This document shows, piece after piece, positions 2,382 through 25,540 of a stretch of DNA of 26,027 nucleotides. Both the position numbers and the translations under genes were made by a program. Within the stretch, counting starts at the first letter, position 1, and each line of letters opens with the position of its first letter. A model generated the notes under the pieces. That model did not search any database. It was not told the DNA's origin and worked only from the letters and a program-made list of their open reading frames with translations. Origin of the DNA: a virus; the IMG/VR virus record IMGVR_UViG_3300021963_007667, positions 1 to 26,027 of that record. The stretch is one strand, 5' to 3'.

Positions 2382-2389
2382 TATTTAGA
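2382..2389 (-). promoter_or_regulatory. Late promoter-like octamer over the outer-membrane gene stop
   Basis: The minus strand reads TCTAAATA, 7 of 8 matches to TATAAATA, with the TAA being the stop codon of the outer-membrane protein gene. It lies about 50 nt before the holin-like start. It lacks the GTA suffix of the better copies. Confidence 0.35.
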
Positions 2390-4562
2390 ATTTGAATTTA
2401 AGTTTTGCAGATACTGCAGTGTTAGAAACACCATCATTGATTTGATGAATTCCTTCAATAACGACCATCTCTTTATAATCAACAGAAGCAGATGCTTCAA
2501 TTAATCCACTGGTTTCATAAGAACCACCAACAGTTACTCCAAATAAATCCTTTTTCTTTCCACCAAAACGGTGTGAAATATTTAGACCAACCTCACCAGA
2601 ATGTGAAGTTTTGTTTATAGCATCAATAGTTCTTCTGGATTGAATAGAACCTTTTTCAGTAAATCCATCTCTCTGATAGTTACCAACAGTGTATCCAACA
2701 AATGGAGTTATGTTCTTATTGAGGTGCCAGAATAATCTGTTATTTACAAACCACTCTTTTCCTTCTGTTGAACTTTCATTATTGAAGACACCCTGAACAT
2801 TTCTGGATACATTATATTTGTTCTGAGAAAATCCAGCATTTGTTAAGAGTGAGAATGTATTTCCACGGAACATATTGAATATTCCATAATGATTTTTGAG
2901 GAGTTTAGAAGTGCTATCAACTCCACCTAAATCAATATTCATATTATTGTATTGAGCACCAACAGTCCAGGTTGGTTTAATATCAATCTCTAATCCACCA
3001 CCAATGATTAAAGTCTTACCATTGTATCCATTCTCACCAGAAGACCAAGTATAATAGTTGTTATTGAATACTCTTACTCTGTCTGTGGTTGGCTCAGTTG
3101 GTTCGTAAATAAACAGATTTTGTAATCCACCACCAATCTTATCTAAAACTTCATACTGATCAGTGCGACCAGAAAGAACATCGTGAGTATTCTCTGTATC
3201 AACAGAAAGAAGTAATGATGCTACAACGGTTCCATCACTATAAGTATCCTGTCTTAATAAAGGAGTTTGAGTTGTAGTTGCAAAATCTCTTCTAATCTTT
3301 TGAACTCCATCCTTTTCAGATGCTTTATGAGTTACTTCTGTGGTAACAACAACTGGAAGTCCTGGTGCAGGAACAGTAACAGAGCTTAATAATGTTGGTG
3401 GTTGTGGTTCAGGTGTTGGAGTTACTTCAGGTTCAGGAGTTGGTTCTGGTGTAGGTTCTGGAGTTGGAGTTACCTCAGGTTCTGGAGTTGGTGTAGGTGT
3501 AGGTTCTGGAGTTACTTCAGGTTCTGGTGTAGGTTCTGGAGTTGGTTCAGGAGTTACCTCAGGTTCTGGTGTTGGTGTAGGTGTAGGTTCTGGAGTTGGA
3601 GTTACTTCAGGTTCTGGTGTTGGTGTAGGTGTAGGTTCTGGAGTTGGAGTTGGTGTAGGTGCTACTTCATCAACAGATGGTGCATCTGGGTTGTTTGGAG
3701 CAACAGGAGTAAATGCTTGACCATTTGCTGTTGTAGTTCCAGGTTGACTATCAACTAAAAGAACTGGTGATAGTGCAGTATCTCCAAGGTTGAACACTGC
3801 AAATCCTAAGAGATAATCACCATTAGCACCTACTTGATAGGTTGAATACTGCCATCCAGTAGAACCAAAAGAACCAGTAGAATAATCACCTGTTCCTGGA
3901 TTAGTAAATCCAAGTAATGCATAGTTTTGAAGTTGGTTATTAACTGTTACTGATGGAGATGAACCTGCACCTTGATAAACAAGTGAAGTAATGGAACCAT
4001 CATTGAAAGGAACATAATCAGTTCCAATGTAGTTCCAAGACATTGTATAGACTTTTCCAGTCTCTAATGTGACTGATTTAGTAATCCAAGCAGCATCAGT
4101 TGGATTTGGATTTCCAAGTCCTGATGCTTGTTGTTGTTGAGTGAGAAGATCTCTTATTGCTTGATTTTGCTCTGGAGTTAAACCAAGTGCTTCTGTTGCT
4201 TGGTTAAATGTTTGTTGACCGTTTGGTTGCAGTGCAGCACCAGCAGTTCCGTAAGGAGCAAACTCCCAAGTGGTTGGTGTTACTGCGGGTGCGTGATATG
4301 GGTTAGGAGAACCATCAGGTAATGTTGGACTTCCTACTGCTGGGAAAGATCCAGCATTGAAGATTACTGGATTATCAACAACACTAACACCAGTCCCTCC
4401 TCCTTCGATTGTGGCGTCTAAGGTTCCTGTTTGAGTTCCAGTGTTCCATCCTGAAGTATTTCCAGTCTCAAAATCTGTACCAGAAATTGTATCTGCGAAT
4501 GCTGTTGGTGCCCCCATTAAAAGAGCAGACGCTACAGCAAGCGCCCTTGTAGCGTAAGACAT
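2385..4562 (-). CDS. Secreted autotransporter-like outer-membrane protein with Pro-rich linker
   Basis: A 725-aa protein in three parts. A signal peptide covers residues 1-23 (cut after PTAFA). A predicted surface or periplasmic part, about 24-300, is rich in Gly, Thr, Asn and Ser, opening with a [10 protein letters not shown] segment typical of secreted beta-sandwich repeats. A Pro-Thr-Glu linker spans about 302-389 ([13 protein letters not shown] units). The C-terminal part, about 395-725, has alternating aromatic/hydrophobic residues ([17 protein letters not shown]) and ends KLKFKF, with the terminal Phe usual for outer-membrane beta-barrels. This suggests a barrel carrying an exported passenger. 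It lies between the lysozyme and holin-like genes and is preceded by a long hairpin that hides its ribosome site. Function unknown: superinfection exclusion, adhesion or envelope disruption are possible. Confidence 0.65.
3395..3659 (-). repeat. In-frame TPEP-type tandem repeat
   Basis: About 265 bp of degenerate short repeats encode [15 protein letters not shown] and [10 protein letters not shown] units of the linker in the outer-membrane protein. Such repeats slip easily, so linker length may vary between relatives. They also create long open frames on the plus strand that are not genes. Confidence 0.85.
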
Positions 4563-5373: not shown

Positions 5374-5497
5374 TGTTGTCTCCGAAATAACGTTGATAAA
5401 GTTCGTTTGCTTCTACATGCTTTCCATTATTAGTAAGTTCTCTAATCACCTTAAGCATCTTTGCTTTAAATCTAGTCGAAGATTCTTCCCCACCCAT
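5351..5497 (-). CDS. 48-aa charged protein between the two lytic enzymes
   Basis: The ORF starts MGGEESSTRFKAKMLKVI and has a helix-rich middle (RELTNNGKHVEANELYQRYF). A strong AGGAGGT site lies 5 nt before the ATG at 5497; a second ATG at 5500 is in frame but too close to it. The gene overlaps the end of the peptidase gene by 26 nt and the start of the lysozyme gene by 23 nt, filling the gap between them. The strong ribosome site and tight fit argue that it is real. No family recognised. Confidence 0.65.
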   Translation of the reverse strand: MGGEESSTRFKAKMLKVIRELTNNGKHVEANELYQRYFGDNNGKNRFT

Positions 5498-6143
5498 CAT
5501 TACCTCCTGGGCACCAACGATGCTTGAGAACTGCTTTGGTGTAAATAGTCTTCTTACCGTTAGTCACAGGTCCAGTGTAGTTATCGTTTAGTGAACCATA
5601 TGGATCATTAACGTAATATCCCTTACCATCTGGTGTCTTGCCGATTACAACACACATGTGCCCACCAGTAGGTGCAGAAAGAGAACCCCTATGGAGTATG
5701 CCAATAACAACGGGCTTCCCAGCGTCCAGACTTTTATCGATATCAGCAAAAGATAAATTGTAACTAAAGTGTGACTTAACGCCATAACCTGCCAGAACCT
5801 TCGTCTGTACGGCGTGATCAGTCGTATCACCGATTGCAAATACTTTCTTAACGTATTCGTCATCGCCTTTGATGCTACCTGGCTTGAGGAAAGCAAGACA
5901 CATAGCGCACGATGAAGAGTTGCAGGTTCTATGTGCATCTCTGTAGTTGTCTACTTGATTGAAATATGGAACTGCAAGAACTGCTGGTGTAGGGGGTTTA
6001 GTTCTAAAAATTCCAATCCAATCTGTTTCTGCATCATCTAAAAACTGAGCAGGAAGGTTATCCTCTAACCACTGAACCGCTGCAACATGATTTGAATTGC
6101 TATCATCATAAAACTTAAAAAAGTTATGAAGATCTAGGGTCAT
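5472..6143 (-). CDS. C39-type (papain-like) cysteine peptidase with shared N-terminal module
   Basis: A 223-aa protein. Residues about 55-215 look like the Peptidase_C39_2 fold: CNSSSCAM at 74-81 with candidate nucleophile Cys74, GGHMCVVIG at 160-168 with His162, and YVNDPYG at 177-183 carrying the Asn/Asp of the triad. Such domains cut peptides, often in cell-wall or secretion contexts. Residues 1-47 share DLHNFFKFYD, QWLEDNLP and DWxxIxR with the lysozyme at 4705, so the same module was joined to two catalytic domains. No signal peptide. A perfect late promoter lies about 25 nt upstream of the ATG. A peptidoglycan cross-link peptidase is the simplest reading, but cleavage specificity cannot be read from sequence. 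Confidence 0.7.
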   Translation of the reverse strand: MTLDLHNFFKFYDDSNSNHVAAVQWLEDNLPAQFLDDAETDWIGIFRTKPPTPAVLAVPYFNQVDNYRDAHRTCNSSSCAMCLAFLKPGSIKGDDEYVKKVFAIGDTTDHAVQTKVLAGYGVKSHFSYNLSFADIDKSLDAGKPVVIGILHRGSLSAPTGGHMCVVIGKTPDGKGYYVNDPYGSLNDNYTGPVTNGKKTIYTKAVLKHRWCPGGNDGWGRIFD

Positions 6144-8040: not shown

Positions 8041-9510
8041 TCAGAACTTGAACGTTGTCTGAATTACACCACCCCAGTTAGAGGAGTTGTCGGCAAGACG
8101 TTGGTTGTCACTACCGTAGATGATAGCAGGAGTGACGCTGATGTTATCAGACACTTGATACTTGTAGAAGATTTCAAGAAGAGTGGACTTCTCAAGGTCT
8201 TCCCCAGTAGGAGCCTGACCGATAGCAACACCAGCGGAGTTACCGTCAACAAATACATCGTCCCAAGTCAGACCAGCAAACCAAGACTGACTATTGGTAG
8301 CAGCACTTTCAGTACCACTCACAGTGTTCCAACCATAACCAGCAGATACAGAAGGAATGATGCCCGACTTTTCAGGTTGCCAGTAAGCGTTCAGTGCATA
8401 ACCATTAGAGGTTTGACCAGGAGCAAGAGCACCAGAAGCACCATTCAGACCGTTATAGGTGCGAACACGAGTACCTTCAGTACCATAACGGTAACCGAAT
8501 GCAGCACCCCAGTTAGTACCACGATAACCGATTTGTGCCAGAGTATTCAGAGCACCAGTCTCATCAAACTCACCACGAGTGCTATCTTGACCTGCTTGTG
8601 CGACATAGTTCACACCAGCAACAAGACCTTTGGTTCCATACTGAACACCGAAACCAGCACCAGTAGCCTTGTTATAAACACCAGGAGCACCAGCAGTGCT
8701 GAAGAAATCAAGAATACCAGACTTATATGCAGTAGGCACCCAGGAGATTTCGGTGTTACGAACCAGAGCACCAGCAGTCAGAGTAGTGCTGTTATTGAAA
8801 GCAGGGAACGAATAATACAGACGGTCGATAACTACGTTGTTACCAACTTCGCTAGAAGTATCGTCTGCTTTATCCAGTTTAAAGATTGAAGAACTGGAAC
8901 CGAAAGGATCACCACTGAAGTTAGCAGAACGCAGACGAGTGCGAAGCAGATCCTTACCAGTGAACGAAGTATCCAGGTTCAGACGGAGATCGTAGTTGAA
9001 TGCAGTGTGAGTTACATCACCACCTTTGGTTTGGTAGTCATCAACACCACCAAGAACAAAGTTTGCTTCACCACGGAGTTTGGTTGTGGTAGAGAACTGC
9101 TGTGCTTCAAGAGTAGTGACCTGTGCTTCCAGACTTGTAACCTTACCTTGAATTACAGTCAGTTCATTGCGGAACTCATTAGCAAGACGCTTCAGTTCAT
9201 CTGTGTTTTCAGTTACACGATCCAGGCAAGCATTGAGAAGTGCTGCTGCCTCATAACGGGTCATTGCTTTGCCACCACTAAAGGTGCCATTTGGATAACC
9301 AGCAACGCAACCATAACGCTCTACAAGGTTGCTGAGTGCCTGATAAGCCCAGTCAGTGGGCTTTACATCAGACAGTTGTGAGATGCTTGTGACCTGCTCA
9401 GAGGTATTGTATTGGTTGACTGCTGCCATATTAAGATCTGCCGCATTCGCAGCAACAGGAGCAACCATTCCCAGAGCAACAGGTGCAAGCATCAGTTGTT
9501 TGAGTTTCAT
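8041..9510 (-). CDS. Cyanobacterial-type SLH/OprB outer-membrane porin
   Basis: A 489-aa protein with the full layout of Synechococcus/Prochlorococcus major porins (SomA-like). Signal peptide 1-23 (cut after PVAANA). SLH domain about 43-100 (LSDVKPTDWAYQAL, GCVAGYPNGTF, TRYEAAALLNACL), which anchors to the cell-wall polymer. Coiled coil about 101-140 (LKRLANEFRNEL, VTSLEAQVTTLEAQ). OprB-type beta-barrel about 145-489, ending TTFKF with terminal Phe. It should insert in the host outer membrane and pass small solutes. It forms its own transcription unit, with leader hairpin and terminator. Base composition is visibly richer in G+C than the flanking glycan operon, suggesting acquisition from a host. 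Nutrient uptake during infection or replacement of the phage receptor are possible roles. Confidence 0.88.
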   Translation of the reverse strand: MKLKQLMLAPVALGMVAPVAANAADLNMAAVNQYNTSEQVTSISQLSDVKPTDWAYQALSNLVERYGCVAGYPNGTFSGGKAMTRYEAAALLNACLDRVTENTDELKRLANEFRNELTVIQGKVTSLEAQVTTLEAQQFSTTTKLRGEANFVLGGVDDYQTKGGDVTHTAFNYDLRLNLDTSFTGKDLLRTRLRSANFSGDPFGSSSSIFKLDKADDTSSEVGNNVVIDRLYYSFPAFNNSTTLTAGALVRNTEISWVPTAYKSGILDFFSTAGAPGVYNKATGAGFGVQYGTKGLVAGVNYVAQAGQDSTRGEFDETGALNTLAQIGYRGTNWGAAFGYRYGTEGTRVRTYNGLNGASGALAPGQTSNGYALNAYWQPEKSGIIPSVSAGYGWNTVSGTESAATNSQSWFAGLTWDDVFVDGNSAGVAIGQAPTGEDLEKSTLLEIFYKYQVSDNISVTPAIIYGSDNQRLADNSSNWGGVIQTTFKF

Positions 9511-9599: not shown

Positions 9600-10393
9600 G
9601 TATTTTGTTGTACTGCTGAGTTTTCGGTTATCCGACCCAAATAAGGGTTATAATCCGTTATATGTTCTACTGTAAGATCGCTTCCTTGAGTTTTCCAAAA
9701 ATTAAGTATTCCATCATGACTATTGCGATGAAATACATCAATGTGTTCTGGATGAATAGATGAACCCAATTCCAATCTATAAAGCAACAATGGAGTTGCA
9801 TAAGTCACACCTGAGTTATAAATCAAATCGTCTGCAACTGCTCTTGGTTTAACTCCATTATCAAGTTTATACTTATCACCTCGAATATGATTAGAAATTA
9901 ATTTTTGTGCATGATGACGAGTAATTACATAACAAGCAGTTGAAAAATCATTTACAAAACGGTTATGAATGGGAACTACAATATCACCAGTACAAATAAT
10001 AGCAAGTTGAATTACATCCCAAGCATAAGGAGCTCGTGCAATAAAATCTTGCCATGTAAAATTCCAATACTTTACTAGATCTAAATTACAATCATCTTCC
10101 ATAATAATTGCATATGGACTATCAGAAGTTTCCATCCAATGTTTAATTGCCTTGAGGTGAGATGTAGTACAACCAATTTCCCCAGAGGTCATCATATCTG
10201 GATATTTTCCTTTAATAATATCACTCAGATCATCTTCTCTACCATCATATGCAGATATTCTTGTATAATTTTCAATCTCCCAATACTTAAATTGGTTTTC
10301 CATATACTCTTTTCTATCTGGTTGCTTATCTAGATTTAAGTAGTATATGGGTCCAAAATTTTTGAGTTTATATGTTGATTTATTTTTATCCAT
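9596..10393 (-). CDS. Glycosyltransferase family 25-like
   Basis: A 265-aa protein with the GT25 (LPS/LOS beta-galactosyltransferase-type) layout: YYLNLDKQPDR at 17-27, GEIGCTTSHLKAIKHW at 71-86 and IIMEDD at 96-101, where the acidic triplet binds the metal-sugar nucleotide. Members transfer galactose or similar sugars in the cytoplasm to lipooligosaccharide or related acceptors. Length is normal. It is the last gene of the glycan operon, overlapping the upstream gene by 8 nt (ATGGATAA), with no clear Shine-Dalgarno, so its translation likely depends on coupling. Donor and acceptor are unknown. Confidence 0.8.
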   Translation of the reverse strand: MDKNKSTYKLKNFGPIYYLNLDKQPDRKEYMENQFKYWEIENYTRISAYDGREDDLSDIIKGKYPDMMTSGEIGCTTSHLKAIKHWMETSDSPYAIIMEDDCNLDLVKYWNFTWQDFIARAPYAWDVIQLAIICTGDIVVPIHNRFVNDFSTACYVITRHHAQKLISNHIRGDKYKLDNGVKPRAVADDLIYNSGVTYATPLLLYRLELGSSIHPEHIDVFHRNSHDGILNFWKTQGSDLTVEHITDYNPYLGRITENSAVQQNT

Positions 10394-11330
10394 TGATGAC
10401 TTTTAGAATGTTTGGCAAATAATGCTTTTTTAAAATTTTACACCATTCAAACTCTTTTGCATAGTCTAAAATTTCCTCTCTGTTTTTTAGAGAGTATTTT
10501 CTATTTTGAATAATAATATCTTCTACAAATTCAATATCAGAAATTTTATTTTCAGGAACAACCGAAATAAACTTCTTACTCAAATCCAAATTGGCAGCTG
10601 CCCACTCACTAATTACAACGCCTAGACCAGCAGCAAATGCCTCCATACAAACTAAAGGATGAGCTTCCCCATCCGAAAGAAGAACTAGATTTGCATAATC
10701 TGTTAGACTACTTTGCAGTTCTTTTTTACTCCATTCCCCCAAATAATTTTTTGTCTGATCAAATTTTTCATCTGCGATATTTCCTGCATAATAAAGAGAA
10801 GAAATATTTTGAAATAGATGCTGCCTTTTTCTACTGTCTATTTTTGCAAGATAAATGCTTCTATCAATATACTTTGGTTTTGTAGAAACTTTAAATGCAT
10901 TAAGATTGACACCATTTGGATTTAGATACAATCTCTGTTCAGGAATATCTGCAAGTTTATTATAAATTTGATTGATACCTTCAGACAACCCAAAAACATT
11001 TGGTTTAATTTTAGAGAATAAATCAAAAATTCTCTGTTTGTATGGACCCATCATTTCGGGTCTTTCAATATATGCAAAATGAGTTGTAACTGAGCAGGGA
11101 TATTGAATATATGGGTAAAGTCCTACCCAATCATCATAATTAATATGAACAAAGTCTGGACGATATTGATTTATTTTATTTACAATATCATAGGGGTCAC
11201 CAACGTTTATAATTTGAACGTCGTGCCCCATATCATTTAAGGTTAACTTCATGTCCCATATGAGAGACTCCACTGCACCCCAACCAACAGGAGGAATAGG
11301 AGTATTGGGACCAACAATACTAATCCTCAT
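10386..11330 (-). CDS. GT-B glycosyltransferase (GT4-like), paralogue B
   Basis: A 314-aa GT-B protein. The N-terminal domain opens MRISIVGPNTPIPPVGWG followed by AVESLIWD, the Gly-rich donor loop of GT4 enzymes. NPNGVNLNAF follows in the middle. The C-terminal domain has LVLLSDGEAHPLVCMEAFAAGLGVV, in which the E-x(7)-E-like region contacts the nucleotide sugar. It is shorter than usual GT4 enzymes (about 350-400 aa). It shares both ends with the next-upstream gene, so the pair arose by tandem duplication. Start overlaps the previous stop as ATGA. Sugar specificity unknown. Confidence 0.78.
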   Translation of the reverse strand: MRISIVGPNTPIPPVGWGAVESLIWDMKLTLNDMGHDVQIINVGDPYDIVNKINQYRPDFVHINYDDWVGLYPYIQYPCSVTTHFAYIERPEMMGPYKQRIFDLFSKIKPNVFGLSEGINQIYNKLADIPEQRLYLNPNGVNLNAFKVSTKPKYIDRSIYLAKIDSRKRQHLFQNISSLYYAGNIADEKFDQTKNYLGEWSKKELQSSLTDYANLVLLSDGEAHPLVCMEAFAAGLGVVISEWAAANLDLSKKFISVVPENKISDIEFVEDIIIQNRKYSLKNREEILDYAKEFEWCKILKKHYLPNILKVING

Positions 11331-12292
11331 TGCATTTTCTCAATATTCTGTGTATACAATTTTACTAACTTTTCCCAAGAAAAATTATCAATACCAAACT
11401 GACGAATATCATCTCTCATATTTAAGGATACCTCTCTGTTTTCTTTAATTTTTTCTTCGACATATTTTATATCCTCCAACTTATCATCGGGAATGACAGT
11501 TACAAAAGGTAATCCCTTTGGTAGATCATGTGCTGCATATTTAGAAATTACTACACCCAATCCATTGATAATTGCTTCCTTTACAACTAAAGGAGTTCCA
11601 TTCTCTCCATCGGAAAGAAGAACAAGATTGCCGTAGTCAGTAAAATGTTCACGTTTGTATTCATCAGTCCACTCACCCAAATAATTAATACTTGGATTAA
11701 ATGCAGTAGATCCTGTATTTTGACCGACAAAATCTATTGAATCTATGGATTGATAAATCCATTGTTTTTTTCTATGATAAATTTGTCCCAAATAAAGAGA
11801 ACGATTTGGTTTTTGAGGATCTTTTGTATATAAAAATCTTTTATGATTTGCACCATTCTCTGATAGGAGTAATTTAGATTCATCCGCACCTGCATTTTTA
11901 AAAGTTTCATAGTCTTTTTTAGAAATACAAAAGACGTAGTACTCTTTATTTTTGACAATCCAATCAAATACTTTATCATACCCATCACGTCGATGCATAT
12001 GTGGTTGATCGATATATGGATAGTGACTACTTATTGCTAGTTTTGAAATTTTTGTTTCCGAAGCAATTCTATCTAAAAGTGGGTAAAAGACATCATAATG
12101 AAGATGCGCAAATTCATACGTATCTTCATTCAGATATTCTATTATTTCATCCCAATTTTGAGTATTAATAATTGTTCCTTCATGACCAAGTTCATCCAAC
12201 TCAAGTGCATAATCCCAAATTAAACTTTCAACTGCTCCCCAACCATCTGGGGGGATTGGCATAATCCCCGGACCAATTAAAGATAGTTTCAT
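11327..12292 (-). CDS. GT-B glycosyltransferase (GT4-like), paralogue A
   Basis: A 321-aa protein, paralogue of the gene at 10386. The shared blocks are PIPPxGWGAVESLIWD at the N-terminus, YLGEW, the TDYxNLVLLSDGE block and GLGVVIS near the C-terminus; the middle has diverged (here SENGANHKRF in place of NPNGVNLNAF). Divergence in the centre with conserved ends is what one would expect if the two add different sugars or use different acceptors. ATGA overlaps with both neighbours. Confidence 0.78.
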   Translation of the reverse strand: MKLSLIGPGIMPIPPDGWGAVESLIWDYALELDELGHEGTIINTQNWDEIIEYLNEDTYEFAHLHYDVFYPLLDRIASETKISKLAISSHYPYIDQPHMHRRDGYDKVFDWIVKNKEYYVFCISKKDYETFKNAGADESKLLLSENGANHKRFLYTKDPQKPNRSLYLGQIYHRKKQWIYQSIDSIDFVGQNTGSTAFNPSINYLGEWTDEYKREHFTDYGNLVLLSDGENGTPLVVKEAIINGLGVVISKYAAHDLPKGLPFVTVIPDDKLEDIKYVEEKIKENREVSLNMRDDIRQFGIDNFSWEKLVKLYTQNIEKMQ

Positions 12293-13106: not shown

Positions 13107-14141
13107 TCAAACCTCCCTATTATAAACTTTAAGAATTGAATTAGCGCGATTAACAAAAGTGTGATACTTTTGAACATGCTGCATTGCTTCAAGAACTAAA
13201 TCATGATTTGGATTTTTTTCAAAGTTTAAACAATCGATGGGAAGTTGTGATTCATCATCATTGTAAATGACATAATCACCAAGAAGTTCTTTTACTGCTT
13301 TTGAATTTGTTCCAGGCAGTCTACCATAACTAATTTGTTTAATGGTTCTACATGCGATAAAACCAATTTTTTTATGGTTTCCACCTGTCACTGGTTTACC
13401 GTTAACTTCAAGTTTGCCTTCAGAGTTTGTGTGATAATAATCACTACCACGAACATCTAAAGAAATAATAGACTTTTGCATATATTCTTTATTTTCTTCA
13501 AATGTACAGGGATTAACCCAAGGATTAATATGAGCAAATTGAATATTCATTCTACTAAGAGTTTCAGCAACTTTTTGCATTTCAAAAGCAGGTGATCCTC
13601 CAAGAGTTCCTACAAAATAAAATTTATTATCCCTAGGAATAAAACGATCTTCAAAATTAAATTCATGCGGAAGAAGGTCTGTCCCCCAAATCATATAAAT
13701 TGCTTCATATCCAGATAGGCCCTTCTTTCTACTATCTGCAAGAACACTATCATTGGCATTGGAATCATAATAAGTCGCAGTATCGATACAATTAAGTTTT
13801 GATTTATCTAATACAAAACTATAATTGTTATCGTTTAATTCGGAAACATTAAATCTAATATCAATTAACCTAGATCCCTTTTCAATATATTTTGAAGGAT
13901 TTACTGCATTGTGAATAAAATATGTCGAACTTTCAAGAATTGGAATTTTATCATCCGCAAATCCTTCAGAAAAGAATAATGAATTTGAGTAATCAAAAAC
14001 AGCAGGATCTGGGTGATTTCCTACATGAAACCAATAAGTATCATATCCAAGATGCTGAAATGCTTTATAAAAGCTTGCATGAATATACGAATGAGTATGG
14101 GTATGGAGGGGAAACCCCCAAATAATAATTTTAGGTTTCAT
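13107..14141 (-). CDS. Putative glycosyltransferase, CgeB/Glyco_trans_1_2-like C-terminus
   Basis: A 344-aa cytoplasmic protein. It opens KPKIIIWGFPLHTHTHSYIHASFYKAF, resembling the N-terminal Rossmann part of GT-B enzymes, and ends with EAMQHVQKYHTFVNRANSIL, close to the terminal helix (HTxxNRAxxxL) of CgeB-type glycosyltransferases. The segment KQISYGRLPGTNSKAV would be the donor-binding loop. No certain family. Its location between clear glycosyltransferase genes supports the call. The ATG at 14141 overlaps the previous TAA (TAATG). Confidence 0.55.
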   Translation of the reverse strand: MKPKIIIWGFPLHTHTHSYIHASFYKAFQHLGYDTYWFHVGNHPDPAVFDYSNSLFFSEGFADDKIPILESSTYFIHNAVNPSKYIEKGSRLIDIRFNVSELNDNNYSFVLDKSKLNCIDTATYYDSNANDSVLADSRKKGLSGYEAIYMIWGTDLLPHEFNFEDRFIPRDNKFYFVGTLGGSPAFEMQKVAETLSRMNIQFAHINPWVNPCTFEENKEYMQKSIISLDVRGSDYYHTNSEGKLEVNGKPVTGGNHKKIGFIACRTIKQISYGRLPGTNSKAVKELLGDYVIYNDDESQLPIDCLNFEKNPNHDLVLEAMQHVQKYHTFVNRANSILKVYNREV

Positions 14142-14911
14142 TAGAATCTAGGTAAAGTTACAGTAAAAGAATGTGCTTGCTGACCTACTCCAAAAATATC
14201 CATCGCTTTTTTATGAAGCATTTCTGGAGACCACGCACCACCAAACTCTTGATCACACCTATCAAATAAGTGGTCGAGAAAGTTGAAAGCAGACATAAAT
14301 GGATCCATTGCTTTAGGTCCACCAAAGTTTAACCAATCATTGACCATACCATCTGGTTGATTTAACCACCCAGAATAATTTACAACATTTGGATCATACT
14401 GCTCATAGAAAATTTTTTGATGTGGTATTGTGTCTGTTCTACACTTTACAATCCAATCATATTTAAAATTATTTGCATATTCATATTCTTTACGAAGTAA
14501 ATTGACTTGGTTTACAGTATAAAGATACGATATGTTATTGTTTACAATTCTTGGAATGTAATTTGGTTCGTTAGTTTCCTTCCAATGCTTGGACCAAGGA
14601 ACTAACTCACCGTTTGGATAATAAGAATAGTCTGTCTTAATAGTAGAATCTTTAAAAGATTTACTCTTTTCTACCTTATATAATTTTGGATTATATAAAT
14701 TTATGGCATCATCAATAGCAGTTGAAGAAATTCTTTGATTTTCCCAACCACCGTCTCCGCCATATTTGTATGGTTTAGTTTGAAGATCTTCATCAAACCA
14801 AAAATGAAAGAATACATCAACATCATATCCTTCACATAAATTTTTTATAATGTATGGAGATACCTCATTTACAAATCTAGGTTGTCCGTACAAGCATAAT
14901 GCAACTTTCAT
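14141..14911 (-). CDS. Putative GT-A-like glycosyltransferase (YGQPR-type)
   Basis: A 256-aa protein beginning MKVALCLYGQPR, a motif found in uncharacterised capsule/LPS-cluster proteins. YDWIVKCRTDT at 151-161 looks like a GT-A strand leading to an acidic donor/metal site. WIVKCRTD and the final VGQQAHSFTVTLPRF show no further clue. A good GGAG Shine-Dalgarno sits 6 nt before the ATG, and the 31-nt upstream gap is one of the few in this operon, so translation may restart here. Function is by context. Confidence 0.5.
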   Translation of the reverse strand: MKVALCLYGQPRFVNEVSPYIIKNLCEGYDVDVFFHFWFDEDLQTKPYKYGGDGGWENQRISSTAIDDAINLYNPKLYKVEKSKSFKDSTIKTDYSYYPNGELVPWSKHWKETNEPNYIPRIVNNNISYLYTVNQVNLLRKEYEYANNFKYDWIVKCRTDTIPHQKIFYEQYDPNVVNYSGWLNQPDGMVNDWLNFGGPKAMDPFMSAFNFLDHLFDRCDQEFGGAWSPEMLHKKAMDIFGVGQQAHSFTVTLPRF

Positions 14912-18574: not shown

Positions 18575-19564
18575 TTATAATTCTATTTCAGTTGCTACTT
18601 TTTTAATTAATTTTTCCAAATCAGTATCAGGTTCCCAATTCAAAAGTTCTTTAGCTTTTTGATAAGATCCTTTTGAGTATTTTGTAGTTTCCTTTGCTAC
18701 TACATTTTTGTCTAAAGGATAGTATCCAGTAAACAACTTTGGATAAGTATCCCAAAGTTTTGATGCCTCTCTATATATTGGTTTAACATCGGACTGAAAT
18801 ACTTCAGAGACATATTCAAGTATTTGATTTACAGATAGCAAAGTCCCAGTACAAACATTGAAGGTTTCATCGGGTTTTTTATCCAAGCAAATATCAATCA
18901 ATTTGACTACATCGTCAACGTGAATATAGTCTCTTTTTTGTTCACCATCAGAGTGAAGTATGGGACTATTTCCATTTTTAATTTCCCTCACCAGATAGTT
19001 AAGAAGAGGAGGATTTTTACGATGAATATCTTGTCTAGGTCCAAAAACATTAAAAAATCTTAATGTAGTAATCTTCATTCCATAGTTTAATCTATATGAT
19101 TCACAAACCTCTTCAGCCATTTTTTTGGAAAGAGAATACCAAAGACGAGGAGTTATATTCAAATCCTCTGTAAAGACTTTTTCTTTATTATTTTCATATA
19201 CTGCACTAGTGCTAGCAAAAATAACGTGAGGAACTCCCCACTTTCTAGCACATTCCAAAATATTCATTGTACCTGAAACGTTTACATTTACAGATTCAAC
19301 AGCGTTTACTTCACAATCTGGAAGAGCAGTAATTGCGGCAAGATGAATAATACAGTCATATCTTTTTTTTAAAGTATCAACCAATTTCGGATCACAAATA
19401 TCAAACTCATATAACTCACTAAATTTTTTATTTTTAATGAAAAGATTTTGTAAATATCCATTCCTCAAGTTATCAACTAGAGTAAGATCATGACCTTTAG
19501 TAAAAAGATAATATCCAAGAGTTGACCCAATTCCTCCAGCAGCACCTGTCAATAATATTTTCAT
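18575..19564 (-). CDS. NAD-dependent epimerase/dehydratase (extended SDR)
   Basis: A 329-aa protein. GAAGGIG at 7-13 for NAD, HLAAITA, ASTSAVY with catalytic Ser/Thr at 118-120, Tyr143-Lys147 (YSLSK), RFFNVFGPRQ at 169-178 and DGEQKRDYIHVDDV at about 206-219. The whole layout is that of UDP-glucose/UDP-GlcNAc 4-epimerases and related 4,6-dehydratases. The C-terminal part diverges (LFTGYYPLDKNVV), so the substrate is uncertain. It sits directly after the nucleotidyltransferase-HAD fusion and may act on that enzyme's product. ATGA overlap upstream. Confidence 0.78.
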   Translation of the reverse strand: MKILLTGAAGGIGSTLGYYLFTKGHDLTLVDNLRNGYLQNLFIKNKKFSELYEFDICDPKLVDTLKKRYDCIIHLAAITALPDCEVNAVESVNVNVSGTMNILECARKWGVPHVIFASTSAVYENNKEKVFTEDLNITPRLWYSLSKKMAEEVCESYRLNYGMKITTLRFFNVFGPRQDIHRKNPPLLNYLVREIKNGNSPILHSDGEQKRDYIHVDDVVKLIDICLDKKPDETFNVCTGTLLSVNQILEYVSEVFQSDVKPIYREASKLWDTYPKLFTGYYPLDKNVVAKETTKYSKGSYQKAKELLNWEPDTDLEKLIKKVATEIEL

Positions 19565-20625
19565 TTTAAAAACTCCCTCAAGTTATTTGAATTTCTTTGT
19601 ATATTGATTGCTTCGCAGGATGGGTAAGGATTACTTTTTGCAAAATCATTAATAATAATTCTATTACAATGCGGAAGACCCATTACAATTTCATCAAATG
19701 GTATTCCTTTTTCATTCAACTCTTTTAACGTTTGTTCTTCATATTTTTTAGGTCTACTAGTTGTTAAGATAATTTTAACAAATCCACCAGAATGTAAATC
19801 TTTCAAAGCATCTATATTTTCTTGAATTGCTTTAGATTGTCCAATATACGGTGGAAAATGATGAGACGAATTTTCTACTAGAGTTCCATCAATATCAACA
19901 AAAAGACACTTGTATTGAGACTTATACTTATTCCAAGAATCTAAAGTTCCCCAATCTTTAAAATTGCTTGTCTTTAATCCACTAAACTTTTCACCAGAAA
20001 GGATCATCTCAAATATTACATTACTAATGTAACATTCACTTTCATGATCATATTCAGAGATTTTATCAAAAACCTTGACAAATTCTCTAGCACTTTTAAA
20101 TCCATATCCACCAGAAGAAAAAGTAGAACTTATAACTCTTTTCTCTACAATATTAGTTAGAACACCGTTTATATCAAATTCAACGTAACTCTTCGATCTG
20201 GCATTAATATTATCCATATCATTAAGATCAAAATATGCAACTTGATTTGTTTCATCACAAACAGTGCATTCATAATATCCATCAGAATCTTTGATGAAAA
20301 TAAATCCTTCAATATCTTTCTGTTGGATCAATTTACAAACAGTTTCAGATTGAGAACTTGTTGGATTATCGAGAAACACAACTTCAGACTTTTCAGACAA
20401 TCCAAATGATAAAAGATCTTCCATAAAACCTTTATGGAAGGAATACTTATCTTGATGTTCTTTTAAAGCAACAAAATAAATCTTATCAAAGAACTCTAAA
20501 TTTAAACCCAAAATGGATGCTATCCCCATGAATGTGTTTGACATTGGGTGTGATAGCATCCACTTAGGTCTTAGTCCAGGATATCTACTAGACCGTCCCG
20601 CCATAGGAACGATTAATGTTTTCAT
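19561..20625 (-). CDS. Nucleotidyltransferase-HAD phosphatase fusion
   Basis: A 354-aa two-domain protein. Residues 1-235 are a sugar-nucleotidyltransferase: MAGRSSRYP at 8-16 (here replacing the usual GxGTRxxP loop), Lys21 in RPKWML, and KDSDGYY at 112-118 with metal-binding Asp residues. Residues 238-354 are a small HAD phosphatase: VDIDGTLV at 243-250 (nucleophile Asp244, Asp246), LTTSRP at 287-292, and IIINDFAKSNP as the last acidic motif. Making an activated intermediate plus removing a phosphate is typical of pathways that build NDP-sugars or NDP-polyols. The kinase-like gene upstream overlaps by 38 nt, suggesting a kinase-nucleotidyltransferase relay. Substrate unknown. Confidence 0.75.
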   Translation of the reverse strand: MKTLIVPMAGRSSRYPGLRPKWMLSHPMSNTFMGIASILGLNLEFFDKIYFVALKEHQDKYSFHKGFMEDLLSFGLSEKSEVVFLDNPTSSQSETVCKLIQQKDIEGFIFIKDSDGYYECTVCDETNQVAYFDLNDMDNINARSKSYVEFDINGVLTNIVEKRVISSTFSSGGYGFKSAREFVKVFDKISEYDHESECYISNVIFEMILSGEKFSGLKTSNFKDWGTLDSWNKYKSQYKCLFVDIDGTLVENSSHHFPPYIGQSKAIQENIDALKDLHSGGFVKIILTTSRPKKYEEQTLKELNEKGIPFDEIVMGLPHCNRIIINDFAKSNPYPSCEAINIQRNSNNLREFLK

Positions 20626-21430
20626 ATAGACTTGAAGATTTAAGCATTTCCTTTATTATAACTCTTTGCCTGTCTTCAGTCAAGTAAGGATCTATTCGAA
20701 GAGAATTTAAAAAATCAAGTATATCAAATTCTATCGTATCAATATAACAAGAATATCTATTTTTTATTTGTTTCCAGATAAAAGAATATATTTGATATAT
20801 TCTCCTGTGGTTTATTTGCTGCTCTTTTAATCCCCAATAATAAAAAAGATCTTGCTTTAGTTTTACCAAATCAATCAAAAAGGAATCAATAAAACAGTCG
20901 AGAAAATCTATAAAGTAAAGTTTATTTTTATGAAAGATAATATTTGAAAATGTTAAGTCTCCATGACAAAAAGTTTGAGGTATATGGAGATCATTATTTT
21001 CAACCACAGATTTCAAAAAAGACAAATCTTTTGGATAATTAGTTACTTCACTTAAAGAAGAAATTTTATCCAATATTTTCTTTTTAGATACAACTGATTT
21101 GTAATATCTAGAATTTACTATTAAATCATCAAAGTATCCAAAAAGTGAAGTTAACACAAACTGCACTTCTTCATTATTACAGACAGAAAAAAATTCAAAA
21201 GAAGAATTGCCAGAAACATATTCCATATCAAAATTATATAGATCTCCAAAATTAATATCAAAAACCTTTGGAGATTCTATATTCTTAAATGTTAAATTGC
21301 AAAATAATTTTTGTTTACTTATTTGATAATAAAGTCTTTGATTGTATGAAGAAGAAGATGAGTACTTTCTTACAATATTATCACTAGGTAACTCAAGTTT
21401 GCATCCTGATAATCCATTCAAATGAATCAT
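20588..21430 (-). CDS. APH/choline-kinase-like phosphotransferase
   Basis: A 280-aa protein. CHGDLTFSNIIF at 155-166 contains the catalytic-loop Asp and metal Asn of the aminoglycoside/choline kinase fold, and YFIDFLD at 172-178 contains the DFG-like Asp. The N-terminal half is divergent and Ser/Asn-rich. Such kinases phosphorylate sugars, choline or other small hydroxyl compounds. The 38-nt overlap with the nucleotidyltransferase-HAD gene links them strongly: kinase makes the phosphate, nucleotidyltransferase activates it. This recalls the LicA/LicC choline pathway, but I see no LicD-type transferase here. Antibiotic resistance is not implied. Confidence 0.68.
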   Translation of the reverse strand: MIHLNGLSGCKLELPSDNIVRKYSSSSSYNQRLYYQISKQKLFCNLTFKNIESPKVFDINFGDLYNFDMEYVSGNSSFEFFSVCNNEEVQFVLTSLFGYFDDLIVNSRYYKSVVSKKKILDKISSLSEVTNYPKDLSFLKSVVENNDLHIPQTFCHGDLTFSNIIFHKNKLYFIDFLDCFIDSFLIDLVKLKQDLFYYWGLKEQQINHRRIYQIYSFIWKQIKNRYSCYIDTIEFDILDFLNSLRIDPYLTEDRQRVIIKEMLKSSSLYENINRSYGGTV

Positions 21431-23656: not shown

Positions 23657-24494
23657 TTTTCATTACCTCAAATACTTTTCCAATTCCTTCTTGTATTGTT
23701 GTCTTTGGTATCCACCATTTAGTGATATACAAATCTGCTTTATTTTTTTTATCTAATTGAATTTTGTCTTTTTCGATACAAGGTTGAACTCTGACATCAG
23801 TTTTATCGATAAGATTAAATTGTCCAGCAACCATATGTGCGATATCAATTATTTTTGTAGAATTAAAACTTGTAATGTGAAGATTATCTTCTGAAGTAAA
23901 TTCGCTATAGTTTTCCATAATGCTTTCAAGTGCTTCACAACAATCTTCAGCATAAAGAAACTCACGTTCTTCCTGACCATCTGTAAGCATGTCAATTACA
24001 CCAGTCTCAAATCCTTTACGAATAAAGTCAGTGATTACGTGTGCTTTTTCATGATCTCTTTCAATTCCATATACATTCCAAAATTTAACGATAAGACCAT
24101 TCAGAGACTTAGTATAAAGTTCTCCAACATTCTTAAGGACACCATACGGAGAATAACTCATATTGCTCATCTGAGATGAGGCAAATACAAATCTTTTATT
24201 ATATTTTTTCAAAAGACCAAACGCATTTGCCATTAGTCGAGCATTATTATCAATGAATTGAAACGTGTGTTGATACTTCTTAAGATAACGAGAACCACCA
24301 ACATCGAATGCAAGGAAGAACACAAAGTCTGATCCTTTGATAACATTTTCCAAATATTGATTTGGAATTATTGTCATATCTTGTTCTGGACCATTAACAA
24401 TATCAAATTCATTGATGGTATGACCTTTTTCACAGAGGTATTTTGTTAAATAAGAACCAATCTGCCCACTAGATCCCAATACTGCTATTTTCAT
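23643..24494 (-). CDS. NAD-dependent epimerase/reductase (extended SDR)
   Basis: A 283-aa SDR: GSSGQIG at 7-13 (NAD(P) site), FASSQMSNMSYSPYGVLK with Ser106-107 and Tyr117-Lys121 as catalytic residues, WNVYG and DGQEEREFLYAEDC as the substrate-binding segments. It is shorter and more divergent than the other SDRs here, with FLAFDVGGSRYL replacing the usual HLAA. Directly coupled (TAATG) to GDP-mannose 3,5-epimerase, it might act on that enzyme's product or on another NDP-sugar; a GDP-fucose-synthase-like epimerase/reductase role is one option. Substrate not determined. Confidence 0.7.
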   Translation of the reverse strand: MKIAVLGSSGQIGSYLTKYLCEKGHTINEFDIVNGPEQDMTIIPNQYLENVIKGSDFVFFLAFDVGGSRYLKKYQHTFQFIDNNARLMANAFGLLKKYNKRFVFASSQMSNMSYSPYGVLKNVGELYTKSLNGLIVKFWNVYGIERDHEKAHVITDFIRKGFETGVIDMLTDGQEEREFLYAEDCCEALESIMENYSEFTSEDNLHITSFNSTKIIDIAHMVAGQFNLIDKTDVRVQPCIEKDKIQLDKKNKADLYITKWWIPKTTIQEGIGKVFEVMKNDWI

Positions 24495-25540
24495 TATTTT
24501 TTAGCAATTTGTTCTGAAATCCAATTATAAGTTTTACGAATACCTTCTTCAAGAGTTTGAGAATAATCCCAACCAAGTTTTTCGCGAATAAGATCATTAT
24601 TAGAGTTTCGACCACGAACTCCAAGAGGACCATCAATGTGATTTTTTTCTACAACTTTTCCGGCAACTTTGGCAGCAGTATCTACAAGTTGATTGATGGT
24701 AACCATTTCTTCAGAACCAATGTTTACAGGTCCGATAAAATCACTTTCCATCATTCTACAAGTTGCTTCGATACATTCATCAATATACAAGAAGGAACGA
24801 GTTTGTAGGCCATCTCCCCACACTTCGATGGTTCCACCTTCCTCTGGAAGGTATGCGACTTTACGACAGATTGCTGCTGGTGCCTTTTCTCTTCCACCTT
24901 CCCAAGTTCCTTCTGGTCCAAAGATATTATGATACCTAGCAACCCGAACAGGGATCCCATAATTACGATTATAAGCGAAAAACAGCCGCTCTGAGAACAA
25001 CTTCTCCCAACCATATTCAGAATCTGGTGCTGCTGGATATGCGGATTCTTCACGGCAATCGGGATTGTCTGGATCAAGTTGATTATGTTCTGGATACATG
25101 CAGGCAGATCCAGAGTAAAAGATTTTAGTTTTATTTACTTCTTTAAAGTCATTAAGTTGACGCTGTGCTTCAAGAATATTGAGGTTAATAGTTGCGGAAT
25201 TATGCATAATATCAGCATCGTTTTCTCCAGTGAAGACAAAACCCGCGCCACCCATATCAGCAGCAAACTGGTAGATCTCATCAAAAGTATCAATGTACCT
25301 ACTAGGAACAAAGTTATAGAAATTTCTATAGGGACCTTTATACTGAAGAACTCTTTCTACGAAATTCATATCTCGCAAATCACCGATAACAAATTCATGT
25401 GCTTCGCTTTCTGAAAACTCAGGAAGTTTAAGGTCAACACCACGAATCCAATAACCTTCGGCACGCAGTCTCCTTACCATATGACTTCCAATAAATCCAC
25501 CAGCACCAAGAACAAGTGCTGTTTTTTTATAATCACCCAT
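24494..25540 (-). CDS. GDP-mannose 3,5-epimerase
   Basis: A 348-aa SDR with the specific signature of GME: GAGGFIG at 12-18, AADMGGAGF at 93-101, SGSACMYPE at 143-151, Tyr176-Lys180 (YGWEK), YHNIFGPEGTWEGGREKAPAA at about 203-223, WGDGLQTRSF at 241-250, PVNIGSEEMV, and GVRGRNSNNDL. Cys147 and Lys219 correspond to the acid/base Cys145 and Lys217 of the Arabidopsis enzyme. The reaction is GDP-D-mannose to GDP-L-galactose (and GDP-L-gulose). There is an apparent extra segment of about 19 residues near 66-88 relative to plant GME. It is the first gene of the glycan operon; the ATG at 25540 lacks a strong Shine-Dalgarno. GDP-mannose would come from the host. Confidence 0.88.
   Translation of the reverse strand: MGDYKKTALVLGAGGFIGSHMVRRLRAEGYWIRGVDLKLPEFSESEAHEFVIGDLRDMNFVERVLQYKGPYRNFYNFVPSRYIDTFDEIYQFAADMGGAGFVFTGENDADIMHNSATINLNILEAQRQLNDFKEVNKTKIFYSGSACMYPEHNQLDPDNPDCREESAYPAAPDSEYGWEKLFSERLFFAYNRNYGIPVRVARYHNIFGPEGTWEGGREKAPAAICRKVAYLPEEGGTIEVWGDGLQTRSFLYIDECIEATCRMMESDFIGPVNIGSEEMVTINQLVDTAAKVAGKVVEKNHIDGPLGVRGRNSNNDLIREKLGWDYSQTLEEGIRKTYNWISEQIAKK

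Follow-up and report, generated by a model that had tools for sequence, protein, structure and literature searches.

Kinase and nucleotidyltransferase-HAD genes of the window

The DNA analyzed here is a viral record of 26,027 bases (IMGVR_UViG_3300021963_007667, in the following "the window"). Its left part has the character of a Synechococcus T4-like cyanophage, with peroxiredoxin, ferredoxin and porin genes that match many such phages, and the remainder is taken up by a minus-strand cluster of glycan genes. Two overlapping genes of this cluster are the subject of this work. The first encodes a small-molecule kinase of the APH/choline-kinase fold (20588..21430, minus strand, 280 aa; Pfam APH E 1.1e-7, above cut-off), the second a fusion of a nucleotidyltransferase (NTase) and a HAD phosphatase (19561..20625, minus strand, 354 aa). 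According to the coordinates of the open reading frames (ORFs), the 3' end of the kinase gene and the start of the fusion gene share 38 nt (20588..20625, minus strand), which likely reflects translational coupling. The fusion gene in turn overlaps by 4 nt with a gene for an epimerase-like extended short-chain dehydrogenase/reductase (SDR), here called SDR1 (18575..19564, minus strand, 329 aa; Pfam Epimerase E 1.2e-52). An earlier note on this DNA had listed these ORFs with their positions, 38-nt overlap, domain calls and the SDR after the fusion, and all of this was borne out. The kinase and the NTase-HAD fusion are referred to as the module.

The kinase was modelled with AlphaFold2 at a pLDDT of 89.2. 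Comparison of the model with known structures (VIA-align) gave APH(4)-Ia (Z 16.8, root mean square deviation 3.3, 244 aligned residues), a putative fructosamine-3-kinase (Z 16.6) and maltokinase 5jy7 (Z 15.6). As the fold matches are spread over families such as these, mostly aminoglycoside kinases, fructosamine-3-kinase and maltokinase, the fold names no substrate; NahK, AmgK and LicA were not among the 50 fold matches listed, which excludes nothing. At the sequence level the window kinase also matches Pfam Choline_kinase (E 1.9e-5, below cut-off). Its catalytic loop HGDLTFSN (residues 156-163; 20942..20965, minus strand) was placed by alignment and residue counts. G157, D158, N163 and D175 are invariant in 58 of 58 kinase sequences and H156 in 56.

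In the fusion, the NTase domain comprises residues 1-235 (19921..20625, minus strand). Pfam alone makes no NTase call in this N-terminal part; the domain was recognized by the family profile, which matches the Vibrio cholerae nucleoside diphosphate (NDP)-sugar pyrophosphorylase 4evw over positions 4-212 (E 8.7e-15). Members of the family have their best matches among sugar-1-phosphate nucleotidylyltransferases (TIGR03992, E 3.4e-7). The C-terminal part, residues 238-354 (19564..19914, minus strand), is a cap-less HAD phosphatase domain (Hydrolase_3 E 4.6e-5, above cut-off). Across 60 distinct fusions the NTase residues G10, R14 and K21 are invariant but for one gap, D115 and the DxGT motif (D224-x-G226-T227) are invariant, and so are D244, D246, T288, T289, R322 and D327 of the HAD domain. 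The earlier note had suggested checking homologues for lost catalytic residues; they are kept in both the fusions and the kinases. The MAGRSSRYP loop, which it had taken for a variant, turned out to be ordinary for the NTase family, related families having MAGMSSRF (4evw) or MAGLSSRF (L110). The predicted structure of the fusion is of low confidence (pLDDT 61), and structure matches obtained with it are used as leads only. In SDR1 the motifs TSAxY and YxxxK are invariant in 32 sequences, the former of which we take to lack the D-E pair of 4,6-dehydratases. In the two pairs tested, the ratio of nonsynonymous to synonymous substitution rates was low, at 0.04-0.16, for the kinase, the SDR and each half of the fusion.

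Conservation of the module in viruses and bacteria

Two scans of IMG/VR yielded 80 distinct loci. Adjacency was counted in the 73 IMG/VR contigs in which the fusion gene is complete and is preceded by further sequence, corresponding to 41 clusters at 90% identity. By hidden Markov model (HMM) the kinase lies directly upstream of the fusion in 70 of these contigs, and in 71 when including L106, in which an antisense ORF had masked the kinase and it was found by hand. The only contigs with a fusion and no kinase are L096 and L097. The two genes overlap by 38, 41 or 32 nt, the commonest values, in 53 of 70 viral contigs. This arrangement extends to distant members in which the fusion is 27-46% and the kinase 19-37% identical to that of the window, and in three other phages (L084, L105 and L106) the pair is kept as an isolated unit with no glycan cluster around it. 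The association between kinase and fusion is not a chance pairing. An SDR1-like gene follows the two in 38 of 71 contigs; SDR1 is thus an optional add-on outside the core of the module, and from the gene trio put forward in the earlier note the kinase and fusion stand as the core while the SDR does not. In a phage collection outside IMG/VR the whole fusion was found in one record only, the single-cell marine virus MH319741.

Two side observations concern these loci. In L099 (4851-6685) the kinase and fusion genes are each split into two frames, by assembly error or decay. Small proteins resembling, by eye, glycerophosphodiester phosphodiesterases are encoded near the fusion in L095 (4426-4962), L096 (9080-9502) and L097 (9041-9469); in L151 (8501-9010) one is encoded next to a HAD-NTase fusion. 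Pfam gives no match for the copy in L096.

A recurrent neighbour is a gene of the WavE or DUF7796 family, probably a glycosyltransferase in either case. The two were kept as separate families, since homology between them was given a probability of 7% in the profile comparison. In 61 of the 73 contigs the fusion has such a gene no more than two genes ahead of it or three behind it, and counted by cluster the figure is 34 of 41, compared with an expectation of 9.5 around the other genes of these loci; the models for both families were seeded from these neighbours, so that the association is partly ascertained and the counts are somewhat favourable. The window differs from most other loci in that its DUF7796 gene (14141..14911, minus strand; PF25072 E 3e-7), encoding a putative glycosyltransferase, is found four genes beyond SDR1 and not beside the module. 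A gene matching the WavE model directly precedes the kinase in L081, L083, L084, L086, L087 and L089-L094, the clearest cases; in L084 and L086 it also encodes TPR repeats. Nothing else from the glycan cluster of the window was detected in these contigs. In L084 (32-9059) a tail-fibre gene is located near the module.

A scan of genome contigs with a single window protein returned no relative, and the same scan with an alignment as query returned one bacterial locus. In an Alphaproteobacterium from deer rectum (L028) the overlapping pair is found in a surface-glycan setting, accompanied by gmd, fcl, a FAD-dependent mutase-like gene and a WavE-family gene, and 201 genomes of the same order contained three more with a full-length fusion. 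The search for the trio elsewhere, which the earlier note had proposed, was successful in two of these three, the gut Alphaproteobacteria L145 and L146, which likewise place the pair among surface-glycan genes. Both carry kinase, fusion, SDR and WavE in this order, although in L145 a further gene separates WavE from the SDR. The SDR of these genomes is 38% identical to SDR1 of the window and its reciprocal best match among the proteins compared. In L148, obtained by a class search around genome G364, the kinase/fusion pair is flanked by DUF7796 genes. Among the 398 genomes of the phylum that were sampled first, only the seed genome contained the full fusion, and the module is therefore rare in bacteria.

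The same three domains were also found in other ARRANGEMENTS. Two bacterial genomes, 1.3-1.4 Mb in size (L149 and L150), encode them in one protein of 618-624 aa with the order NTase-HAD-APH. In hhalign the NTase-HAD profile is colinear with this protein over 308 columns (probability 99.6) and the kinase profile matches the remainder (probability 89.6); in L150 a WavE-family gene adjoins it. CJSA_1357 of Campylobacter jejuni IA3902, listed as a 619-aa "dTDP-glucose pyrophosphorylase" (PMC7901785), has about the length of the three-domain protein. A second arrangement consists of a small HAD and an NTase-APH fusion (L095, L102, L033, L122 and the bacterial L116). In three of these loci (L102 2288-5523, L122 14803-17034, L033 10803-13541) the small HAD and the NTase-APH fusion occur with a mannose-6-phosphate isomerase cupin, next to or near an SDR1 orthologue. 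The order in L102 is SDR1 orthologue, HAD, isomerase domain (PF01050 E 1.4e-26) and NTase-APH, all of which overlap or abut. A 314-aa protein, without Pfam match in L102, follows and overlaps the NTase-APH fusion in L102 and L122. As the NTase parts of the NTase-HAD and NTase-APH arrangements showed no detectable likeness in profile comparison, we treat the two as parallel solutions and not as one family. Judged by their domains, the same three predicted activities are brought together repeatedly in these parallel arrangements.

Predicted activation pathway and its alternatives

Domains, intact catalytic residues, conserved co-occurrence, co-fusion and neighbouring genes are all directly observed, and from them we infer that the kinase and the NTase-HAD fusion very probably belong to one activation pathway leading to a nucleotide-linked building block of a glycan. 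The module is genuine and conserved, and it is probably functional as an activation unit working by a known principle. The self-contained set of kinase, nucleotidyltransferase and phosphatase postulated in the earlier note is thereby upheld by the adjacency, the bacterial orthologues, the one-protein version and the preserved catalytic residues. Less certain than the joint pathway, but most likely, is that its product is a sugar. The likeness of the NTase to sugar-1-phosphate nucleotidylyltransferases, its DxGT motif and the extended SDR1 together favour an NDP-sugar; extended-type SDRs act on NDP-sugars.

The order of the HAD and kinase steps and the role of the WavE/DUF7796 protein are likewise less certain than the joint pathway. 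By analogy with the MupP-AmgK-MurU system we tentatively prefer the order phosphatase, kinase, NTase, acting on a sugar. In this sequence of events the HAD domain would strip the phosphate off a common host-derived sugar phosphate, the APH-fold kinase would phosphorylate the anomeric hydroxyl, and the NTase would couple the resulting sugar-1-phosphate to a nucleotide. SDR1, where present, would epimerise the NDP-sugar, and a WavE- or DUF7796-type protein would transfer the sugar to the glycan. Such a route would bypass a phosphomutase and would pull sugar phosphate toward the product at the expense of ATP. The phosphatase-first order is favoured by two observations. The APH-fold sugar kinases known to us (NahK, AmgK, maltokinase) use unphosphorylated sugars, and the parallel module includes an isomerase, which points to a supply of hexose-6-phosphate for that module.

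AmgK has the APH fold. In the recycling of peptidoglycan in Pseudomonas, a phosphatase (MupP), an anomeric kinase (AmgK) and an NTase (MurU) act one after the other (PMC5371407). This system resembles the module in its broad superfamilies (HAD phosphatase, APH-fold kinase, nucleotidyltransferase), with the three activities predicted for the module, and in leading, as proposed for the module, from a sugar phosphate to an NDP-sugar without a mutase, and by analogy it is the closest system in logic. It differs in that its proteins are separate, that it serves cell-wall recycling and that no fusion, SDR or WavE partner is described; furthermore, MupP is a HAD_2-type phosphatase and AmgK belongs to a different family from the window kinase by HMM. 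The window kinase as an AmgK orthologue was rejected, as it gave no match to NF045759 at E values up to 1. In genome G861 the match to the AmgK family sits apart from the three-domain protein. Neither the MupP-AmgK-MurU logic nor the WavE/DUF7796 partner had been part of the earlier note. The reading given there is supported in part.

Several points weigh against the phosphatase-first reading or its wider setting. That NTase and HAD are fused, and stay so in L096 and L097 where the kinase is absent, would be better explained if the two acted in successive steps. The PDB profile search with the NTase family, up to E 10, did not return MurU, no direct comparison with MurU having been made, and NF045759 matches only one of ten relatives of the window kinase, at E 0.0034. 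It is the parallel module, and not that of the window, that includes the mannose-6-phosphate isomerase. To these is added the partly ascertained association with WavE/DUF7796 genes mentioned above.

The fusion of HAD and NTase and their staying together without the kinase lead to the strongest alternative, which we place not far below the phosphatase-first order, though as less likely. Here the kinase would act on the anomeric position of a sugar phosphate, the HAD domain would remove the distal phosphate, and the fused NTase would use the 1-phosphate. Heptose activation follows this scheme, in which the bisphosphate is formed first and a HAD then removes the distal phosphate; cap-less HADs of the GmhB kind act on such bisphosphates. 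Judging from the title of PDB entry 9iqw, phage D-arabinose activation probably also proceeds via a bisphosphate. The HAD half of the fusion has a Foldseek match to this entry, AfhF of phage HY126, deposited as a D-arabinose 1,5-diphosphate phosphatase (E 1.5e-3). As the match comes from the low-confidence model of the fusion it is a lead only, and AfhF was not matched by sequence in the PDB profile search with the fusion family. AfhF, known from its PDB title alone, shares with the module phage-borne sugar activation, a small HAD and a similar predicted fold; the Mosigvirus arabinose genes (PMC13390438) are a further point of comparison. Against the bisphosphate order stand also the use of free sugars by the known APH-fold sugar kinases and the alternative architecture in which the kinase, and not the HAD, is joined to the NTase (L095, L102, L116). 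Heptose activation itself (HddA/GmhB/HddC or HldE) uses kinases of the GHMP or PfkB fold, unlike the window kinase, which is APH-fold by Pfam and by its model.

Some specific assignments were tried and rejected. The window HAD is not GmhB (NF006506, 12.3 bits against a cut-off of 178). It also falls short of the EcbF/BcbF family (TIGR01689, 17.0 bits against a cut-off of 162, E 0.0041), a weak match to HADs that are likewise small and associated with capsule loci; EcbF/BcbF and 4evw are stand-alone proteins, unlike the module, and are not known to have an assigned reaction. For D-arabinose as the product, suggested by AfhF and by Pasteurella capsules, there was no sequence support and no usable literature was found. 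Fructofuranose donors as in Campylobacter or Vibrio were dropped because the literature gave no matching pathway.

Improbable in our view is a route of the LicA/LicC type, in which the kinase would phosphorylate choline, ethanolamine, glycerol or another polyol, the NTase would form a cytidine diphosphate (CDP)-alcohol and the HAD would free the alcohol or edit intermediates. LicA/LicC shares with the module an APH/choline-kinase-like kinase and a nucleotidyltransferase, and the best full-domain PDB match of the kinase-family profile is the LicA-type choline kinase 4r77, at an E value of 0.0015. In the bacterial locus L148 a LicD-family gene (E 1.1e-35) lies downstream, and TagD-like cytidylyltransferase genes are found near the module in L147 (by Pfam) and L148 (by eye). 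The TagD-like genes would make CDP-alcohols unaided, and of the seven bacterial genomes in which the three-domain set occurs, some of them perhaps incomplete, LicD was found in a single one. The Pfam scan of window proteins gave no LicD, nor did a LicD motif turn up in related viral loci. The NTase, unlike that of LicA/LicC, has a sugar-type signature (DxGT and TIGR03992 matches), which together with the SDR partner speaks for a sugar, and we know of no HAD in LicA/LicC. Of the likeness to LicA/LicC or heptose pathways that the earlier note had drawn, neither part could thus be established.

That the genes merely travel together in a variable glycan island without a common pathway, the HAD having a separate housekeeping role, fits the free shuffling of genes in such islands and the differing flanks of the loci, but is very improbable in view of the fusion of all three domains in L149 and L150, the isolated pairs outside glycan clusters and the adjacency kept down to 19-37% kinase identity.

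Further genes of the window and biological implications

Besides the module, several other genes of the window drew our attention. The product of 24494-25540 is an epimerase closely conserved in cyanophages, with up to 82% identity, and by its motifs it presumably resembles plant GDP-mannose 3,5-epimerase. A GDP-mannose 3,5-epimerase has been reported in cyanophage S-SCSM1 (PMC9602691). Adjoining the glycan cluster, 8041-9510 encodes a phage-borne outer-membrane porin of cyanobacterial type with SLH and OprB domains, which contains a stretch 73.5% identical to an annotated porin of phage S-SRM01. A long TPEPTP/EVTP repeat and what looks like a signal sequence are present in a 725-aa protein (2385-4562), whose domain matches are due to low complexity only. 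The N-terminal segment DLHNFFKFYD... is common to a phage lysozyme (4705-5373) and a C39-like peptidase (5472-6143), which gives the impression that a single targeting module has been reused. Two adjoining glycosyltransferase-like genes (10386-12292) are mutually 39% identical and represent an old tandem duplication.

The combination of kinase, NTase and HAD was not found described in the open-licence literature, and the domain architecture is apparently undescribed. In phages that carry a WavE-type gene and the module but no detected glycan cluster, glycosylation of the virion is possible. A wider proposal, which we regard as speculative and on the whole unlikely to hold in full, is that the module passes between phages and the surface-glycan loci of bacteria, produces an unusual NDP-sugar as the dedicated donor of the WavE/DUF7796 proteins, and in some phages, where it lies beside WavE-type and tail-fibre genes, serves to glycosylate the virion.

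The literature searched leaves open which donors WavE/DUF7796 proteins use and with which sugars cyanophages decorate their hosts or themselves. The two-protein module, being strictly conserved, is expected to carry its substrate through to the NDP product within a single tube, so that both questions could be tested directly. Its naturally occurring one-protein form is a biocatalyst candidate that needs no further assembly.

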